From NCBI GenBank assembly GCA_020073615.1, contig JAIQEX010000003.1:1-64000 (forward strand): 64,000 nt of DNA. Direction: 5' to 3'. The translations under genes and the position numbers were made by a program. Below, one piece after another: positions 42,278-50,446 of the stretch (position 1 is the first letter of the stretch; every line of letters starts with the position of its first letter). This DNA is from Terriglobia bacterium (lineage in GTDB: Bacteria > Acidobacteriota > Terriglobia > Bryobacterales > Bryobacteraceae). The notes beneath the pieces are model-generated. The model did not search any database. It saw only the letters and a list, made by a program, of their open reading frames with translations, and was not told where the DNA came from.

Positions 42278-42354
42278 ATTAGTGGACCGGCGCCCGAGTT
42301 TCGTCGAGCAACCGGAGCCCGCGAAAAGGGGACGTGCTAGGATGGATACTTGTC

Positions 42355-42455
42355 AGGTCTCGGGCTCCGTGCAACGAGCGGCTGCAAACCCCGCCAGGTC
42401 CGGAAGGAAGCAACGGTAGCGGTGCGGCGCGTGTGCCGCGGATTACCCGGGGCCT
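42355..42455 (+). ncRNA. ffs: Signal recognition particle RNA (4.5S type)
   Basis: The apical domain is nearly invariant: GCCAGGTCCGGAAGGAAGCA (42383-42402) holds the GGAA tetraloop and the asymmetric internal loops that bind Ffh. The ends pair: AGGTCTCGGG (42355-42364) with CCCGGGGCCT (42446-42455), with GU pairs, which sets the borders at ~101 nt. GCGCGTGTGCCGCGGAT on the 3' side matches the E. coli 4.5S pattern. This is the small bacterial form without an Alu domain. It lies just upstream of dnaX, a common arrangement. Confidence 0.95.
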
Positions 42456-42471
42456 GGCATACACCCGCCGC

Positions 42472-44127
42472 ATGTACCAGGTAATCGCCCGCAAATACCG
42501 GCCGCAGACGTTCCAGGATGTCGTCAACCAGGAACATGTCAAGACCACTCTGGCCAACGCCATCGCGCAGAAGCGCATCGCCCACGGATATATTTTTTCC
42601 GGGCAGCGCGGCACGGGGAAGACCACTATCGCTCGCATTCTGGCCCGCTCGGTGAATTGCGTGGAAGGGCCGACGCCCGAGCCGTGCGGCGTGTGCGCAA
42701 ACTGCCTGGAGGCCTCCGGCGGCGGGGGGCTGAACGTCATTGAAATCGACGCCGCCAGCAACCGCGGCATCAACGAGATGCGCGAGCTGAACCAGAGCGT
42801 GCGCCAGCGGCCGGCCAGCGCGCGGTACAAGGTCTTCATCGTCGACGAAGCGCACCAGATCACCAGCGACGCTTTCAACGCGCTGCTGAAGACGATCGAA
42901 GAGCCGCCGGAGTGGGTGATCTTCATCCTGTGCACCACCGAGGCGCACAAAATTCCGGCCACCATCGCGTCCCGCTGCCAGCACTTCAGCTTCCGCTCGG
43001 TGGATTTCGAAGATCTGGTAGCGCGCCTGACCTGGATCTGCGGGCAGGAGGGGATCGAGGCCGATGGCGAGGTGCTGGCGGTGCTGGCGCAGGCGGGCGA
43101 GGGCAGCGTGCGCGATTCGCTCTCGGCGTTGGACCAGGCGATCGCCTGCTGCGGCACCCACCTGAATGCGGCCGAGGTGCGCGCGCTGCTGGGCGCGTTT
43201 TCCCTGGAATCGCTGGAGAAGGTGACGGCGGCGCTGGCCGCGAGCGATTCGCGCCGCATGCTGGAAGTGGTGGACGAGCTGGAGCGCAACGGTCAGAACC
43301 TGCAGCACTTCAGCCGCGAGCTGGCGCGCTATTTCCGCAATCTGCTGGTGACGCGCATCGCCGGGGGGGACGCGCTGGGGGCCCGCCTGGTGGCGGCTTC
43401 GCCCGAGCAGCGCGCCAGAATGGCGGAGGTTTCGCAGAGTTTCTCGGAAGAAGATCTGACGCGCTACGTGCAGCTTTCGCTCGATCTGTTTCGCGACCTG
43501 CAGTCTTCTTTGCAGCCGCGCTTCCATCTGGAGATGGGGTTGGTGCGCCTGGTGCAGGCCGGGCGGCTGGTGACCATCGAGCAGGCGCTGGCGGAGGCCG
43601 GCGGGCCGGCGCCCGGCGCTGGTAAAACGGCTCCCGCGCCTCCTGCCGCCGCGCGGGCGGCGGCGCCGCCACCGCCGCGGACGGGACCATCGCCGTTCGA
43701 GGCAGACCGCGCGAAGAAAGCGCCGGCACGCCCGCCGGAGCCGAAGGCCGAGACTGCGCGCACGGGAAGTGCGCGCGACCAACTGCACCGCTATCTGCTC
43801 GAGAAGGGCCTCTCGCACCTGGCCGATGCCGTGGAAAACGCGGCGGTCACGGTGGCGGGCAGCGACCTGGAGGTGCTGGCGGCGAAGTCGTACGCGCGCT
43901 ATTTCAAGGACCGCGCCTTCGATGAGGCGGTCCGGGAGGTGTTCGGCAGGCCGCTGCGGCTGAAGGTCACGGAGGGCGATGCGGGGCCGCAACCGGCGGC
44001 GACGGCGTCCCCGGCGGGCGCCGAAGACGACGCCACATCGCGGGCGCTGGCCAACCCGGAGGTGCGGCGTTTCCGGGAAGTGTTCGGCGGCGAAGTTCGT
44101 AAAGTGCGAAACCTGAAGGAGTCGTAA
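42472..44127 (+). CDS. dnaX: DNA polymerase III subunit gamma/tau
   Basis: 551 aa. The start MYQVIARKYRPQTFQDVVNQEHV is canonical. The P-loop is SGQRGTGKTT; a Cys4 zinc site lies in CVEGPTPEPCGVCANC; the DEAH-like Walker B is FIVDEAHQI; the SRC motif is IASRCQHF. Next come the collar domain (~220-360) and an Ala/Pro-rich linker (~360-430), then a tau-like C-terminal part. DnaX is the ATPase that loads the beta clamp and couples the polymerases. The in-frame extension upstream overlaps the SRP RNA and is not coding. Confidence 0.95.
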   Translation: MYQVIARKYRPQTFQDVVNQEHVKTTLANAIAQKRIAHGYIFSGQRGTGKTTIARILARSVNCVEGPTPEPCGVCANCLEASGGGGLNVIEIDAASNRGINEMRELNQSVRQRPASARYKVFIVDEAHQITSDAFNALLKTIEEPPEWVIFILCTTEAHKIPATIASRCQHFSFRSVDFEDLVARLTWICGQEGIEADGEVLAVLAQAGEGSVRDSLSALDQAIACCGTHLNAAEVRALLGAFSLESLEKVTAALAASDSRRMLEVVDELERNGQNLQHFSRELARYFRNLLVTRIAGGDALGARLVAASPEQRARMAEVSQSFSEEDLTRYVQLSLDLFRDLQSSLQPRFHLEMGLVRLVQAGRLVTIEQALAEAGGPAPGAGKTAPAPPAAARAAAPPPPRTGPSPFEADRAKKAPARPPEPKAETARTGSARDQLHRYLLEKGLSHLADAVENAAVTVAGSDLEVLAAKSYARYFKDRAFDEAVREVFGRPLRLKVTEGDAGPQPAATASPAGAEDDATSRALANPEVRRFREVFGGEVRKVRNLKES

Positions 44128-44128
44128 C

Positions 44129-44437
44129 GTGAAACTACCGGGAAACATGCAGCAGATGATGCGGCAGGCGCAGCAGATGCAGGAGAAACTGGCGCAAGAG
44201 ATCGCGCAGATCAAGGTGGAGGCCTCCGCCGGCGGCGGCATGGTGACGGTGAAAATGGATGGCCAGAAAAACCTGCTGACCGTCAAGATCGATCCGGAGG
44301 TGGCGGGCGACGTAGAGATGCTGCAGGATATGATCGTGGCGGCGTGCAACGAAGCGGTGAAGAAGGTGGACGACGAGAGCAAGCAGAAGATGGGCGGCAT
44401 GCTGGGCGGCATGGGGCTGCCGCCGGGTCTGTTTTAA
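44129..44437 (+). CDS. ybaB: YbaB/EbfC nucleoid-associated protein
   Basis: 102 aa, GTG start at 44129. The sequence KLPGNMQQMMRQAQQMQEKLAQEIAQIKVEASAGGGMVTVKMDG is highly typical of the YbaB/EbfC family: an N-terminal coiled coil and a beta-sheet that forms a dimeric tweezer on DNA. It is nearly always found between dnaX and recR, as here. It starts 1 base after the dnaX stop, and recR begins 3 bases after its own stop. Confidence 0.95.
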   Translation: MKLPGNMQQMMRQAQQMQEKLAQEIAQIKVEASAGGGMVTVKMDGQKNLLTVKIDPEVAGDVEMLQDMIVAACNEAVKKVDDESKQKMGGMLGGMGLPPGLF

Positions 44438-44440
44438 GCG

Positions 44441-45040
44441 ATGCCCGATTTCGCCGAACCGCTGGCCCGGCTCATTACGGAATGCAAGCGCCTTCCCGGC
44501 ATCGGGCAGAAATCCGCGCAGCGCATTGCGTTTCACGTGCTGCGCGCCGGCCGGGAGGAGGCCGAGCACCTGGCGCAGGCGCTCCTCGATGTGAAGGACA
44601 AGCTGGGCCTGTGCCGCTTGTGCAACAACATCAGCGAAGGCGATTTGTGCGGGTACTGCCGCGACGGCAACCGCGATCCCAAAGTGGTCTGCGTGGTGGA
44701 GGAGCCGCCCAACATCGTGGGCATCGAGACCACGCGCCAGTTCGCCGGCCGGTACCACGTGCTGCACGGCGCGCTGTCGCCTTTGCGCGGCATCGGGCCC
44801 GACGCGTTGAAGATCAAGGGACTGGTGGAGCGCATCGGCCGGGGTGAAATTGAGGAAGTGATCGTGGCCACCAACCCCACGGTGGAAGGGGAAGCGACGG
44901 CGGTCTATCTGGCCCGACTGTTGAAGCCGCTGGGGGTGAAGGTGACGCGCATCGGGATGGGGGTCCCGGTGGGCAGCGACCTGGAGTTCGCCGACGAAGT
45001 GACCATCTCGAAGGCCATGGAGGGGCGGCGCGAGATGTAG
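44441..45040 (+). CDS. recR: Recombination protein RecR
   Basis: 199 aa, the usual length. Features: helix-hairpin-helix ([19 protein letters not shown]), a C4 zinc finger ([16 protein letters not shown]), a Toprim domain ([14 protein letters not shown]...) and the C-terminal Walker-like [22 protein letters not shown]. RecR works with RecO and RecF in loading RecA at gaps. Third gene of the dnaX-ybaB-recR unit and convergent to the S10 peptidase. Confidence 0.96.
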
Positions 45041-45069: not shown

Positions 45070-46650
45070 TCAGTGAGAGTAACTTGAGTTAATAAACTCA
45101 TCCACATCCTTGTGTAACTTGTCGTGCGCCTTGCGGTCGATATAGATCATGTGGCCGGATTCGTAGTAGGCGAAGGCGACGTTCTTTCGCATGGGCGGTT
45201 CCAGGCTCATGTGGGACACGGTCTCCTCGATGCCGTTGAAAGGCGTGGCGACGTCGTAGTAGCCGCACCGCACGAGCACCTTGAGGTTGGTCTGCTGGGT
45301 CATGGCGGCGCGCAACACTTCGGCGACGGCGGTGTTGCCGGTCTGGTCCCAGGGCCGCACATTGCCGGAGATGGCGTAGTACATATCGCTCGGCCACTTC
45401 AACTCGCGGCGGACGTAGTCTTGGAACGCGGCCGAATACGCGCCCTCGTAGGAGGCCTCGCTGGAATCGTATTCGTTGCGCTCGCCGGCGGCGTCGGCGT
45501 CCATTCCCTCAAAGCGCGAATCCAGGCGGCCGATGGTCTTTCGCTGGTCGCGCTCCAATTCCTTGAACCAGCGCTGGGGGCTGATGCGCAGGTTGCTGTG
45601 TTCGATGTACTTCGGGGACAAGCCGGTAAAGCGCGCGAGGTCCGCGACCACCTTCTGATATTCGGAGGGCGCCAACTGGTCGCCCTTCTCCAGCGCGGCG
45701 GCATATTCGCCGTGCGCGAACTGGCGCGCCGCCTGGGCCACCGCTTCGACGTTCTCTCCCTGTAAGTCGGGTGGCAGCAGGTGGTGATACCAGGCGGTGA
45801 CGGTGTAAGTGGGGAGGAAGAACTTGGAACGGTCGTCTGCGCCCCAATTCGAGAAAGCAACCGAGGAGAGGAGCACGATGCCGTTGAGATAGATCTGGTG
45901 GCGCTGCTGGAGCACGCCGGCCAGCTCGGCGGAGCGCGTGGTGCCGTAGCTTTCGCCGATGAGGAACTTAGGCGAGGCCCAGCGTTCGTTGCGCGTGAGG
46001 TACTGGTAGATAAAATCGGCGAAATAGTTGGCGTCCTGGACGATGCCGTAGAACTGCGCGGTATTCTGACCGGGCGCGGGGCGGCTGTAGCCGGTGCCAA
46101 TGGCGTCCACAAACACCAGGTCGCTGGCATCGAGGAAGGAATCCTCGTCGTCGACGACCGAATAGGGTGCGGGCATGCCGTGTCCATCGGGCGTCAGCAC
46201 CACGCGCCGCGGCCCCATGCCCATATGGGTAAACAGAGAAGCCGAGCCGGGGCCGCCGTTATATACAAACGCCACCGGGCGGCGGGCGGAGCCGGGCACA
46301 TCGTCCCTGGTGTACGCCACGAAAAAGAAAGTGACTTTGGGAGTATCGTCTTCGGCTTTGATTACATAAGTGGCCGCCGTGGCGGTGTAACTAAGCTGCT
46401 GGCCGCCGATACGCGCGCTGTGATGGGTGACTACGGTCTTCTCTTCGGGCGCCGGACCACTGTGTGGCGGCTGCGGTTCGGCCGGCGTGCGGGCACGCTC
46501 GCGCTGTTGTTGCGGCTGCTGCTGGGCGGCGGGGATGGTAACGCGCTGCGCGGGCTGCTCCGCGGGGGGATTGCCGCCCCGCTGCTGCGCCGCCGCACAA
46601 ACAGCCAGCAAAATGGCCGACCCAATGGCGAAAAGCCGATTCATGCGCAT
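45070..46650 (-). CDS. Secreted S10 serine carboxypeptidase
   Basis: 526 aa. The start at 46648-46650 gives MRMNRLFAIGSAILLAVCAAAQ as signal peptide, then a Gln/Pro-rich linker (22-68). The S10 core has the oxyanion region NGGPGSAS (131-138), the nucleophile GESYGT with S234, and late Asp and His segments (YYDVATPFN, ESGHMIY). Family members cut single residues from peptide C-termini, mainly at acidic pH; acidobacteria have many exported ones. It is probably periplasmic or extracellular, with peptide scavenging as its role. An alternative start at 46644 differs by two residues. Confidence 0.92.
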   Translation of the reverse strand: MRMNRLFAIGSAILLAVCAAAQQRGGNPPAEQPAQRVTIPAAQQQPQQQRERARTPAEPQPPHSGPAPEEKTVVTHHSARIGGQQLSYTATAATYVIKAEDDTPKVTFFFVAYTRDDVPGSARRPVAFVYNGGPGSASLFTHMGMGPRRVVLTPDGHGMPAPYSVVDDEDSFLDASDLVFVDAIGTGYSRPAPGQNTAQFYGIVQDANYFADFIYQYLTRNERWASPKFLIGESYGTTRSAELAGVLQQRHQIYLNGIVLLSSVAFSNWGADDRSKFFLPTYTVTAWYHHLLPPDLQGENVEAVAQAARQFAHGEYAAALEKGDQLAPSEYQKVVADLARFTGLSPKYIEHSNLRISPQRWFKELERDQRKTIGRLDSRFEGMDADAAGERNEYDSSEASYEGAYSAAFQDYVRRELKWPSDMYYAISGNVRPWDQTGNTAVAEVLRAAMTQQTNLKVLVRCGYYDVATPFNGIEETVSHMSLEPPMRKNVAFAYYESGHMIYIDRKAHDKLHKDVDEFINSSYSH

Positions 46651-46718
46651 CTCCGTGCTCTCCTTCTGGGGGACTGTATCATGACTGGCGGCGGGGTTCA
46701 ATCGGCTGCCGGAGCCAG

Positions 46719-47234
46719 TTAACCACGGCACGGCTGGTGCTTCGCCAAGGGCGAGACCCACGCGTACAGGATCACGGCTGCCGCGAGGAAAGGCAGCGCC
46801 GGCGTAAACCCGGCGAAAAGACCCACTCCCAGCGCTGCCAGTAGCCCGGTAAGGGGCACGAGCAAGGCGGGAGTTTCGGGCCAGCCCAGGCGCCTCATGA
46901 CCGTTGCACTGGCGGTGAAGAACACCAGGTCGCCCTCACCAATGACGGGAACGAGCGTCCCTTTCCACCATATCGAGACGGCGAAATACTGGAGCAGCGG
47001 GACACCGTGGGGGTGGAGCGCCTGGCCGGCGAGCCACCGCGAGGGGCCGGCAAGCGTGGAGATCAGGTCCACGATGGCAGCGACGGCCAGCATGGTCACC
47101 AGGGCGCCCCCGGAACGGACCTGGCGGCTCAGGAGCGTCCCGGCGAACAGGGCGGCGGACAGGACAGTTCCGCCGGTCACCAGGATGTTGGCGGGGAAGA
47201 GGGCGAGCGCCAGCGCGCAAAACGCGAGCGACAC
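46719..47234 (-). CDS. Compact presenilin-like (GxGD) intramembrane aspartyl protease candidate
   Basis: 171 aa, GTG start, ~6 hydrophobic segments. Three elements match the presenilin/SPP active site in order and spacing: Asp56 in a membrane segment (LAVAAIVDLIST; the family has YD or xD there), G99-E-G101-D102 (VIGEGDLVFF; presenilin GLGDFIFY), and P145-A-L147 (FTPALPFL; the family PAL motif). The Asp-to-GxGD distance (~45 residues) and GxGD-to-PAL distance (~45) agree with the family as I know it. The protein lacks the first helices and large loops of presenilins. A type IV prepilin peptidase (also GxGD) is less likely because of the PAL motif and the missing N-terminal zinc domain. Function is untested. 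It ends a gene string with a GNAT and a sugar isomerase-like protein. Confidence 0.6.
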   Translation of the reverse strand: MSLAFCALALALFPANILVTGGTVLSAALFAGTLLSRQVRSGGALVTMLAVAAIVDLISTLAGPSRWLAGQALHPHGVPLLQYFAVSIWWKGTLVPVIGEGDLVFFTASATVMRRLGWPETPALLVPLTGLLAALGVGLFAGFTPALPFLAAAVILYAWVSPLAKHQPCRG

Positions 47235-47310
47235 AACGGCCAGGCGGTTCTGTTTGGTGGGAGCCGCTGGCGCAAGCAGCCTGGTGCCGCAGTACTCTGA
47301 GTGCCGCGGT

Positions 47311-47757
47311 TCACGGACGGATTACAAAGCTGTAGCCGTGGCGTTCGAAGCCGAGAGAGTCGTAGAAGCGGTGCGCGGCGGTGCGTGGCAGGCCGCTCGA
47401 AAGCATCAGCTTATAGCAGCCGGCCGCCTGGCACTGCGCGCGCGCGTGGTGCATCATGGCCCGGCCGACGCCTTGCCTTTGATGCACCGGGGAGACGGCG
47501 ACGTCTTCGACCACGCCCGTCCGCGCGCCCCGCTTGGCGAGGTTGTCCATCGTCAGCAGGGCGTAGGTGCCGGTGATCGCTCCCTCTACCAGGGCCACGA
47601 AGACGCGGTAGTCCGGGTACCGGCGGAAACGGGCGAAGTGCGCGCGCGCCTCTTCCAGGGTGAACGGCCGCCCGCCGTCGATTCCCGCCTCCTCGTAGAG
47701 GCGAAGAATCTCCGCCAGGTCGGATTCCGCAGCCTCCCGGATGGCGACCTCGCTCAC
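47311..47757 (-). CDS. GNAT-family N-acetyltransferase
   Basis: 148 aa, GTG start. Typical GNAT order: IREAAESDLAEILRLYEEAG (helices 1-2), ALVEGAITGTYALLTMDNL, GVVEDVAVSPVHQRQGVGRAMMHHA with the acetyl-CoA loop Q-R-Q-G-V-G, and a C-terminal AHRFYDSLGFERHGYSF. The acceptor substrate is unknown. It begins 12 bases after the sugar isomerase-like gene on the same strand and precedes the presenilin-like gene by 76 bases. Confidence 0.88.
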   Translation of the reverse strand: MSEVAIREAAESDLAEILRLYEEAGIDGGRPFTLEEARAHFARFRRYPDYRVFVALVEGAITGTYALLTMDNLAKRGARTGVVEDVAVSPVHQRQGVGRAMMHHARAQCQAAGCYKLMLSSGLPRTAAHRFYDSLGFERHGYSFVIRP

Positions 47758-47769
47758 CGGACCATGCCC

Positions 47770-48729
47770 CTACACCCACCACGCCGCGGCCGGCTGCTCG
47801 CGCATGACGATGGCGTTCAGAAACGAGGCCGCTTTGGTAAGCCCTTCCTCGGGCGATAGAATGCTGTCCTCGTGCTCGATGGAAAGCACGTAGTCGTAGC
47901 CGAACATGCGCAGCGTGGAAGCGAACTCCTTCCACCACTCCTCGCCGTGGCCGTAGCCGCAGGTGCGGAAGATCCACGCGCGGTTGCGTTCGTCGGTGTA
48001 GCTCTTGGTGTCGAGCACGCCGGTGAGCGGCAGGTTGCGCTCGTAGATCTGAGTATCTTTGGCGTGGACGTGGAAGATGGCGTCGCCCAGCACGCGAATG
48101 GCGGCGATGGGGTCGATCGACTGCCAGAACATGTGGCTGGGGTCGTAATTGCAGCCGATCGATTTGCCGGCGATGGCGCGCAGTTTCAACATGGTCTCGG
48201 GGCTGTAGACCACGAATCCGGGGTGCATTTCGATGCCGACTTTCACGCCGTGGTCGGAGGCGAACTGCGCATGCTTCGTCCAGTAGGGCGCGACCACCTT
48301 GTCCCATTGCCACTTGAGGATCTCGAGATAGTCGGGCGGCCAGGGACAGGTCACCCAGTTGGGCCACTTCGAGGCTGGGGAATCGCCGGGGCAGCCGCTG
48401 AAATCGATCACCACGGGCACGCCCAGCTTCTCGGCGAGGCGAATCGTCTTGCGGCTCACTTCCTGGTCGTGTTTGGCGCGCGCCTTGTCGGGATGCAAAG
48501 GGTTTCCATGGCTGCTCAGCGCGCTGATGGTGAAGCCGCGATCGGCGAGCTTGCTCTTGAAGTCGTTGAGCTCGGTCTTGTTGTCGAGCATGGAGAGCTT
48601 GCAGTGGGCATCGCCGGGATAGTTTCCGGTGCCGAGCTCCACGGTGTCGATATGGTTGCTCTCTAACTTTTTTAGAACATCGTCCAGGGACAACTGCGAC
48701 AACAGCGGGGTGAATACGCCGACTCTCAC
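47770..48729 (-). CDS. Sugar phosphate isomerase/epimerase family protein
   Basis: 319 aa, GTG start with an AAGGAGAT ribosome site. The xylose-isomerase-like TIM barrel (AP endonuclease 2 family) shows VELGTGNYPG, ISALSSHGNPLHPD, a VVIDFSGCPGDSP strand, a GVKVGIEMHPGFVVYSPETM metal strand (Glu), NYDPSHMFWQSIDP, HVHAKDTQIYE and LSIEHEDSILSPEEG. These Glu/Asp/His positions are the usual divalent-metal ligands. Probably a cytoplasmic sugar or inositol-related isomerase; the substrate is not known. Confidence 0.9.
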   Translation of the reverse strand: MRVGVFTPLLSQLSLDDVLKKLESNHIDTVELGTGNYPGDAHCKLSMLDNKTELNDFKSKLADRGFTISALSSHGNPLHPDKARAKHDQEVSRKTIRLAEKLGVPVVIDFSGCPGDSPASKWPNWVTCPWPPDYLEILKWQWDKVVAPYWTKHAQFASDHGVKVGIEMHPGFVVYSPETMLKLRAIAGKSIGCNYDPSHMFWQSIDPIAAIRVLGDAIFHVHAKDTQIYERNLPLTGVLDTKSYTDERNRAWIFRTCGYGHGEEWWKEFASTLRMFGYDYVLSIEHEDSILSPEEGLTKAASFLNAIVMREQPAAAWWV

Positions 48730-48817
48730 GTGGGATCTCCTTGGTGGATTTTCAGAATCAAGAACAGAATATCACGCGCCTGGCCGGCGGCCGGCAATTT
48801 GGGGGATGATAGGTCCC

Positions 48818-50446
48818 ATGGCAAGACGTTTTTCGACGTTCGCGGTATTACTGGCGGCCTGCTGGTGCGCACCGGTCGCCCGGGCGCAGGGCGAGCCCAA
48901 ATTCGAGATCTCCTTTCCGCCGTCGGCGCACGCGGGGCCCATCACGGGGCGCGTCTTCGTGGCGCTGGCGAAACGCGAGATGCCGGAGCCGATCGCGCAG
49001 GTGGGCTCCTGGAACGGGCAGACGCCGTTTTTCGCCGCCGACGTGGAGGAGCTTGCGCCCGGAACGCCGGCGGTAATCGGCAGGCGCGCGGTGGGGTTTC
49101 CCGCGAGCAGCCTGAAGGACATTCCGGCGGGCGATTACTACGCGCAGGCGCTGGTGAACGTGTACACGCAGTTTCACCGCTCCGACGGTCACATTATCTG
49201 GGCGCACATGGACCAGTGGGAGGGCCAGCACTTCACGCGCTCGCCGGGAAATCTGACGAGCGAGGTGCAGAAGGTGCATCTCGATCCGGCCGCCGGTTAC
49301 GGCGTGAAACTGGAGCTCACCAGGACGATTCCGCCGGTCCAGGCGCCGCCCGATACGGCGTGGGTGAAGCGCATCAAGATTCAGAGCGCGCTGCTGACGA
49401 AGTTCTGGGGGCACGCGATGTATCTGGGCGCCACGGTGCTGCTGCCCAAAGGCTACGACGAGCATACGGGCGTGCGCTACCCCGCGATCTACATTCAGGG
49501 GCATTTTGGTTTGGGCGCGCCGTTCGGGTTCAGCGAGAAGCCGGCGACGGGCGGCGGACGCGGGGCGGCGGGCTACGAGTTCTACCAGCAGTGGACGGGG
49601 GAGGATTTCCCGCGCATGTTCGCGGTGACGTTCCAGCATCCCACGCCGTACTTCGACGACTCCTATGCGGTGAACTCGGCCAACGACGGCCCTTACGGCG
49701 ACGCGCTGCTCCAGGAGCTGATTCCGTACCTGGAGGAGCACTTCCGCATGATCCGGTCGCCCCATGCCCGCGTGCTTACGGGCGGCTCCACGGGAGGCTG
49801 GGAGTCGCTTGCGCTGCAGGTGTATCATCCCGATTTTTTCGGCGGCACCTGGACCATGTATCCCGACCCGATCGATTTCCGGCGTTACCAACTGGTGAAC
49901 ATCTACGAAGACGCCAACGCATTTCAGCCACCCGGGTTCGAGTACAACATTCCCGAACGGCCGCTGATGCGTACCGCGGAAGGACAGGTGACCGTGACCA
50001 TGCGCCAGATGTGCCAACTGGAGGAGGCTCTGGGGAGCAAGGGCCGCTCGGCGCAGCAACTGGAGGCGTGGGAGGCGGTCTACGGACCGGTGGGCGAGGA
50101 CGGCTACCCGCGCCCGCTGTGGGACAAGACGACCGGCAAGATCGATCGCGAAGTCGCCCTGTATATGCGCGACCATGGCTACGATCTGACTTACTATTTG
50201 AAGCAGAACTGGCCGAAGCTGGGCCTGCGGTTGAAAGGTAAGCTGCACTTATACGTCGGAGATATGGATAACTTCTATCTCAACCTGGCGGTCTACATGC
50301 TGGAAGAGTTTCTGAAGACCACCGATGCGGGCGCGACCTTCGAATACGGGCGTCCGATGAAGGGACACGGCTGGCAGCCCATGAGTAACGCCGAGTTAGT
50401 AAGAATGATGGCGGCGGAGATACAAAGGAACGCGCCGGGGCGGTGA
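48818..50446 (+). CDS. Secreted esterase (esterase D/enterochelin esterase-like)
   Basis: 542 aa. Signal peptide MARRFSTFAVLLAACWCAPVARAQ with AxA|Q cleavage. An N-terminal beta-rich region (~25-150) comes first, then the alpha/beta-hydrolase part: YPAIYIQGHFGLG, then VLTGGSTGGWESLALQVYHPDFFGG with the nucleophile in GGSTGG, then LYVGDMDNFYLN and a final GHGWQP His. The family contains Fes-like enterochelin esterases and feruloyl or acyl esterases. Substrate unknown. The ATG at 48818 is chosen for AGG spacing; an ATG at 48806 in the same frame gives 4 more residues. Confidence 0.85.
   Translation: MARRFSTFAVLLAACWCAPVARAQGEPKFEISFPPSAHAGPITGRVFVALAKREMPEPIAQVGSWNGQTPFFAADVEELAPGTPAVIGRRAVGFPASSLKDIPAGDYYAQALVNVYTQFHRSDGHIIWAHMDQWEGQHFTRSPGNLTSEVQKVHLDPAAGYGVKLELTRTIPPVQAPPDTAWVKRIKIQSALLTKFWGHAMYLGATVLLPKGYDEHTGVRYPAIYIQGHFGLGAPFGFSEKPATGGGRGAAGYEFYQQWTGEDFPRMFAVTFQHPTPYFDDSYAVNSANDGPYGDALLQELIPYLEEHFRMIRSPHARVLTGGSTGGWESLALQVYHPDFFGGTWTMYPDPIDFRRYQLVNIYEDANAFQPPGFEYNIPERPLMRTAEGQVTVTMRQMCQLEEALGSKGRSAQQLEAWEAVYGPVGEDGYPRPLWDKTTGKIDREVALYMRDHGYDLTYYLKQNWPKLGLRLKGKLHLYVGDMDNFYLNLAVYMLEEFLKTTDAGATFEYGRPMKGHGWQPMSNAELVRMMAAEIQRNAPGR

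Follow-up and report, generated by a model that had tools for sequence, protein, structure and literature searches.

A 5′-truncated open reading frame in a Terriglobia genome points to a compact presenilin-type protein family in Acidobacteriota

A presenilin-like open reading frame (ORF) was found on the minus strand, at positions 46719..47234, of a 64,000-nucleotide stretch of a Terriglobia bacterium contig (JAIQEX010000003.1; hereafter the window). We consider it likely that this ORF is a 5′-truncated copy from a compact presenilin/SPP-type family of Acidobacteriota, whose intact members would be proteases, while the activity of the window copy itself is probably absent or else uncertain. 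The predicted structures mark this out as a new, compact family of the presenilin type, with proteins of about 200-225 amino acids (aa) and seven long helices. By analogy with the known enzymes that carry the same active-site pattern, the intact members are probably intramembrane diaspartyl proteases.

Motifs and coding character of the window ORF

The ORF encodes 171 aa, counted from a GTG start codon at 47234, and its coordinates include the stop codon. The first-pass annotation had described it as a miniature bacterial presenilin-like protease on account of three motifs, and all three were recovered at the residues it had given. The first catalytic-type aspartate, D56 (47067..47069, minus strand), lies in the motif VDLIS, which follows the family pattern [VA]D-x-x-S. 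The second, D102, closes the GEGD motif at residues 99-102 (46929..46940, minus strand), and PAL at residues 145-147 is part of a PALP motif at residues 145-148 (46791..46802, minus strand). The spacings, which had been put at about 45 residues each, are 46 residues from D56 to D102 and 43 from D102 to P145. In the structure predicted for the window protein, D56 falls within a helix spanning residues 42-62, in agreement with the membrane segment proposed for it, while GEGD stands at the start of a helix at residues 100-115 and PALP at the start of the last membrane helix. A predicted β-hairpin, formed by residues 85-90 and 93-99 (46938..46982, minus strand), directly precedes the GxGD helix.

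When the window protein was shuffled 200,000 times with its composition kept, the pattern D-x(35-60)-GxGD-x(30-60)-PAL appeared in 16 cases. The window has 282 stop-to-stop frames of 100 aa or more, and the D/GxGD/PAL pattern was present in one of them, the ORF itself. Ten of the 1,262 frames in the retrieved loci carried it, nine of which were copies of the family; the tenth, an unrelated minus-strand frame of 662 aa in locus L037, fits the loose spacing by chance and shows how little weight the motif set carries without other evidence. That the set is not a product of chance in the window ORF follows from the retention of both aspartates in all 12 homologous sequences described below.

That the motifs arose by chance in some unrelated membrane protein, or that the frame is spurious, would agree with the lack of any accepted family match for the window ORF alone, and with the frame on the opposite strand, which is also open across this stretch. 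We regard these readings as hardly credible, as they are refuted by the conservation of the motifs over 12 sequences, and the coding-like substitution pattern and the specific fold matches speak against them as well. Composition is likewise coding-like (GC3 0.84 versus GC2 0.53), and comparison with the nearest relative gave a dN of 0.22 and a dS of 0.63 (dN/dS ~0.35). Long open frames also run along the plus strand at 45781-46722 and 46897-47859, opposite a serine carboxypeptidase (S10) gene and the presenilin-like gene; these are probably a by-product of high GC content and not genes.

A sparse and divergent family in Acidobacteriota

Homologs were collected from genome samples of increasing taxonomic breadth, which overlap. 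A first set of 61 relatives gave three matches: the window genome itself (G000), G036, and, weakly, G026. Within the taxonomic family of the window, 7 of the 237 genomes matched at E≤1e-3, the relatives retained having E-values from 8e-64 to 4e-13; the seven were G000, G196 (68% identity), G227, G228, G036, a remnant in G082, and the weak match in G026. An alignment used as query against the class gave matches in 10 of 399 genomes at E≤0.01. G000, G036, and G082 recurred there, G300 and G389 (with two copies) were strong and new, and five matches were weak; the strong matches had E-values from 4e-54 to 2e-50. A sample of the phylum yielded 6 matching genomes out of 396, namely G000, G556, G695, and G874 (strong matches, E 7e-40 to 1.5e-32) and the weak G402 and G598. 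The class of G874 contained 2 matching genomes among 162, adding G900 (E 2e-61 with the larger alignment A2), and the class of G556 contained one among nine. The weak hits in G026, G361, G402, G162, G394, G018, and G598 (E 6e-4 to 9e-3) were dropped, as none of the seven matched stretches held a GxGD motif.

A peptide-pattern scan of genome contigs with the window protein only returned 182 stretches and no relative. With alignment A3, the contig scan returned 152 pattern matches, of which six loci were confirmed; they lie in metagenome-assembled genomes (MAGs) titled Acidobacteriota, Acidobacteria, Blastocatellia, or Bryobacterales, and correspond to G556, G874, G900, G036, G227, and G228. No relative was found in viral contigs (21 stretches with the window protein, 40 with alignment A3), nor in plasmids, for which the window protein and an intact relative each served as query.

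The family is real, divergent, and sparse. It comprises 12 homologous sequences from 11 genomes, all of them Acidobacteriota, a set that includes the window copy and leaves out the G082 remnant. Restriction of the family to this phylum is not established: the whole genomes searched were those of Acidobacteriota, and coverage elsewhere came from the contig pattern scan and the empty viral and plasmid searches. The length of about 200-225 aa for intact members rests on start codons chosen in our analysis.

Conservation of the active-site residues

Eleven alignment columns are invariant in all 12 rows (window numbering): V24, L25, D56, S59, G63, G99, D102, A134, L135, G142, and P148. This holds in spite of pairwise identities that fall to 21% (among 11 of the 12 rows). 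G101, the third residue of the GxGD motif, is a glycine in nine rows, with GxSD, GxAD, and GxTD occurring once each, all in the clade of the window. That clade, consisting of the window copy, G196, G300, and the two rows of G389, is split from the other seven rows with a support of 100/99. The two divergent copies in G389 (L012 and L019) carry GVAD and GVTD at the second motif and are otherwise intact.

The PAL motif varies more. P145 is kept in 10 rows, A146 in 11, and P148 in all 12, and the exact sequence PAL occurs in six, the others having PAV (two rows), PAI, PVL, AAL, or FAI. The first-pass annotation had tied its reading to conservation of the aspartates or PAL across a family alignment; conservation of the aspartates is complete, whereas for PAL it extends to half of the rows in its exact form. 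The remnant in G082 (L040:6200-6500) is broken across two frames, and its second motif reads GVGA, with the second aspartate replaced by alanine; the part with PAL was not found in it. Loss of this aspartate in a broken copy is what one would predict if only intact copies retain D102.

The variation in these motifs could also be taken to mean that the proteins have a presenilin fold and are not, or never were, proteases, serving instead in lipid or peptide binding, as a chaperone, or as a channel. The serine, alanine, or threonine at the third GxGD position in 3 of the 12 rows and the altered PAL in six would suit such a role, as would the sparse occurrence of the family among the genomes searched and the absence of a recurring neighbor gene in the retrieved loci outside two pairs of close relatives (L026/L027 and L029/L030). 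We consider this rather improbable. Both aspartates are present in all 12 rows, whereas the broken G082 remnant lacks the second one, and presenilin itself partly tolerates a small residue in the third place of GxGD, as with G384A. As for the PAL motif, one report describes the archaeal enzyme MCMJR1 as active with the catalytic residues D162 and D220, 58 residues apart, and PPL in place of PAL (PMC2947513), so that a strict PAL is not required in the presenilin/SPP class. A proteolytic function thus remains the preferred reading for the intact members.

Predicted structure and fold matches

AlphaFold2, whose training included presenilin structures, was run on an intact relative of 214 aa (L028) with only seven aligned sequences as input. 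The best of five models had a pLDDT of 88.8 and a pTM of 0.85; the pLDDT of the other four ranged from 86.3 down to 67.7. This model contains seven long helices, a short helix at residues 105-114, and a hairpin (125-130/133-139) that leads straight into the GxGD helix at 140-155. The model of the 171-aa window protein was less confident (pLDDT 80.3, pTM 0.75) and has six helices, the first of which is short (residues 2-12) and of low confidence (block pLDDT 61 and 68). Both aspartates lie on successive long helices in the two models. With the models read at the level of helix assignment, neither of the outcomes that the first-pass annotation had named as fatal to its reading came to light, be it aspartates far apart in a predicted structure or an alignment in which aspartates and PAL vary freely.

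When the L028 model was compared with the PDB by Foldseek, rows 1-15 were all presenilin, SPPL2a, or the archaeal presenilin homolog PSH, at E-values of 0.014-0.72; rows 1-11 for the window model were also of the presenilin type, and neither model had a match at E≤0.001. The structural aligner VIA, with which the L028 model was compared only against the 884 chains ranked highest by Foldseek, placed presenilin, SPPL2a, and PSH at ranks 1-19 with Z-scores of 15.6-11.2, after which the first unrelated chain followed at 5.9. The best match was presenilin 1 in 6lr4, aligned over 198 of the 214 residues at 4.1 Å. For the window model, again compared with chains that Foldseek had ranked, ranks 1-19 were of the same kind and had Z-scores of 11.4-6.9, and the next chain had 5.4. 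These values call for caution: mostly helical models that have no clear match typically reach a best Z of 14, and a Z below about 13 may reflect just a common arrangement of helices, which places the L028 score of 15.6 slightly above these levels and the window score of 11.4 below them. The fold reading leans on the fall in score that follows rank 19 and on the conservation of the motifs no less than on the scores themselves. Taken together, the best fold rows and the invariance of both aspartates lend support to the presenilin/SPP-like fold and the order of its three motifs that had been proposed for this ORF, as far as predicted models can do so.

Relation to known protein families

At the level of sequence, the family stands apart. 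None of 11 members matched the Pfam models for presenilin (PF01080), Peptidase_A22B (PF04258), or SPP (PF06550) at E≤10, and family profiles searched against the PDB retrieved no presenilin chain at E≤10. The family is therefore not filed under those Pfam models. PF06550 matched none of 386 genomes of the window's phylum and did match the Haloferax and Methanosarcina controls. The window protein alone had no accepted match: NCBIfam gave nothing, and the PDB searched by sequence gave one hit at E 2. A similarity of the window protein to DUF3742, the one family that Pfam gave for it, was rejected (E 0.0021; 18.5 bits, below the cut-off of 27.2); it covers residues 112-161 only and was seen in 2 of the 11 members. 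Seven further Pfam families (best E 0.007) and six NCBIfam families (best E 0.0043, a polyprenyl-phosphate transporter) each matched a single member, and none recurs across the family. The most fitting view of these proteins is that of a compact branch of their own that has the fold and active-site pattern of presenilin.

We take presenilin 1, the catalytic subunit of gamma-secretase, to belong to MEROPS family A22A, SPP and SPPL to A22B, and prepilin peptidases and FlaK to A24. Prepilin peptidases and FlaK are the usual GxGD membrane proteases of prokaryotes, and, like the present family, they are prokaryotic proteins with GxGD in a membrane helix, so that a protease related to the type IV prepilin peptidases, not of the presenilin type, had to be considered. 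Yet no Pfam A24 model was among the matches of the 11 members at E≤10, the best fold matches were presenilin, SPPL2a, or PSH, and the family has a PAL(P)-type motif, which, to our knowledge, is absent from A24. An A24-like identity is accordingly very improbable. FlaK-type chains were also not among the fold matches listed, an absence that excludes nothing.

Presenilin is familiar from Alzheimer's disease as an enzyme that cuts within membranes. Most of the presenilin-type proteases described come from eukaryotes and archaea, and a bacterial family of this kind has apparently not been described so far. Among the matches listed for open-access titles and abstract openings, none reported such a family, and a 2021 study of the archaeal origins of these proteases (Raut and others) might include bacterial members. 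One review mentions a "bacterial presenilin homologue" (PMC8396450), which we take to mean the archaeal PSH.

A truncated 5′ end in the window copy

The first-pass annotation had regarded the 171-aa product as a reduced form lacking the N-terminal helices. The compactness stands, with seven long predicted helices in the relatives versus nine in presenilin, whereas the size of 171 aa does not: the natural form has about 200-225 aa with an additional first membrane helix, and part of the 5′ end is missing from the window copy. The presenilin-like frame stays open upstream of the GTG codon as far as a stop at 47322-47324, giving 200 open codons. Part of this upstream stretch (47235..47296, minus strand) is homologous to the nearest relative, where it follows the first helix that is missing here, and contains no ATG, GTG, or TTG. 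DNA similarity to G196 begins abruptly at about 47296, 14 nt beyond the stop codon of a GNAT acetyltransferase gene (47311..47757, minus strand), the upstream neighbor. Since homology to the relatives sets in ahead of the GTG, near 47296, the window gene has lost its original 5′ end. The open frame of the relative in G196 is 247 aa long and includes another hydrophobic stretch at the N-terminus. A corresponding first-helix stretch is present in all 11 other rows of the alignment, in 10 of which (all but G695) it gives a hydropathy peak over the threshold. The fold alignments show the same gap: that to presenilin starts near residue 168 for the window model and near 75 for L028, which indicates a missing N-terminal part.

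Comparison with a genome of the same genus (G001) is in keeping with this. There, genes for a TIM-barrel protein (96% aa identity), the GNAT protein (86%), and the S10 peptidase (87% in one comparison, 92% in another) are consecutive, and no presenilin-like gene was found between the latter two. In the window, the S10 gene lies downstream (45070..46647, minus strand; Pfam Peptidase_S10), and a segment of about 590 bp, at 46707..47296 with ends placed approximately by eye, separates it from the GNAT gene and holds a presenilin-like gene whose start and first helix are missing. The segment was either gained in the lineage of the window or lost in G001, two events that cannot be distinguished with certainty, and an assembly error at the junction may be involved. 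Two families of direct repeats (10-12 nt, two copies each) occur around the segment. As neither of them brackets it, we propose no mechanism involving a mobile element.

The window copy may well be inactive. An alternative is that the 171-aa product is a working minimal protease of six helices, translated from the GTG at 47234 and co-transcribed with the GNAT gene. In favor of this are the open frame with all its motifs, the dN/dS given above, the resemblance of the window model to presenilin (Z 11.4, below the caution level), and the position of the gene in a same-strand row with short gaps. A faster evolution of the window copy than of its sister (tree branch 0.44 versus 0.17) was considered and rejected once the non-homologous leader was removed: the relative-rate tests then counted 16 versus 11, 14 versus 8, and 13 versus 12 unique changes (p 0.29-1.0). 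As the frame is open, its changes are constrained, and there is no significant acceleration, some residual function may persist. Nevertheless, a working 171-aa enzyme is doubtful: the first-helix stretch of the other 11 rows is missing, the first helix of the window model (residues 2-12) is short and of low confidence, an aspartate or asparagine found in the third family helix of all 11 other rows is a glycine here, and a scan for sigma-70-type sites detected none on the strand of the gene in 46550-48900. We therefore retain the reading of a truncated copy, and this makes the ORF a poor choice as the useful minimal model that it had been proposed to be.

Comparison with presenilin-type proteases and possible mechanism

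The nine transmembrane segments described for presenilin (PMC2947513) are not reached in this family, with seven long predicted helices in the L028 model and six in the window model. The large loop between the two aspartate-bearing helices of presenilin is also lacking. Presenilin is far longer than the 200-225 aa of the family. The order of elements is nonetheless shared with presenilin 1, an aspartate helix being followed by the GxGD helix, one further helix, and the PAL helix. In presenilin 1, GLGD is at residues 382-385 and PAL at 433-435, and in the substrate-bound state a hybrid sheet is formed by strands from TM6, TM7, and the substrate (PMC7248309). The hairpin predicted before the GxGD motif in the family would occupy the place that matches the TM6 and TM7 strands.

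With SPPL2a (9k92 and 9k93), the L028 model matched at Z 13.6 and 13.3, scores to be read with the caution stated above; the family is smaller than SPP and SPPL, and has no extra N-terminal domain. The spacing of 46 residues between the aspartates is close to that of SPP. Archaeal PSH (4hyg and 4y6k; PF06550) resembles the family in being prokaryotic and of a single subunit, and the L028 fold matched it at Z 12.9-13.0, around the level at which a common helix arrangement may suffice. PSH and MCMJR1 have nine transmembrane segments, and the sequence DAIS at the first aspartate of two family members resembles that of archaeal enzymes.

On the basis of these likenesses, a mechanism can be proposed for the intact members. 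The aspartate of the fourth helix, corresponding to presenilin TM6, and the GxGD aspartate of the next helix, corresponding to TM7, would activate a water molecule. A membrane helix of the substrate would unwind and pair with the predicted hairpin as an added strand. The loop with PALP would line the active site. As to a general role, one guess is that the enzymes might clear leftover signal peptides or stubs of membrane proteins. On balance, we favor the view that Acidobacteriota hold undescribed minimal presenilin-type proteases, consisting of a single chain of seven helices with a built-in hairpin for substrate pairing, and hold it with less assurance than the assignment of the window ORF.

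In size, the intact members appear to fall below the presenilins described to date, and an intact bacterial family of about 205 aa would define the minimal catalytic core. It could provide a small single-chain model for the unwinding and cutting of membrane helices by gamma-secretase and SPP, and would bear on the origins of presenilin. The useful proteins for such work are full-length relatives (e.g., L025 with 205 aa, L026 with 202 aa, L027 with 206 aa, and L028 with 214 aa), not the window ORF, which illustrates that "miniature" enzymes spotted by their motifs can be truncated copies.

Gene neighborhoods

Pfam identified a few neighbors of family members: in L028 a nucleotide pyrophosphatase as well as a thioredoxin-like protein, in L025 an M24 peptidase, and in L034 an amidase. 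In the closely related loci L026 and L027, the presenilin-like gene is adjoined by a large gene in convergent orientation that is common to both and encodes 911-912 aa with a signal-peptide-like start (L026:6566-9301 and L027:6570-9308). In the window, the region 42334-45040 holds a RecR gene (44441-45040, Pfam) beside two further frames, a small one at 44129-44437, presumably EbfC-like, and a long one at 42334-44127, presumably DnaX-like.
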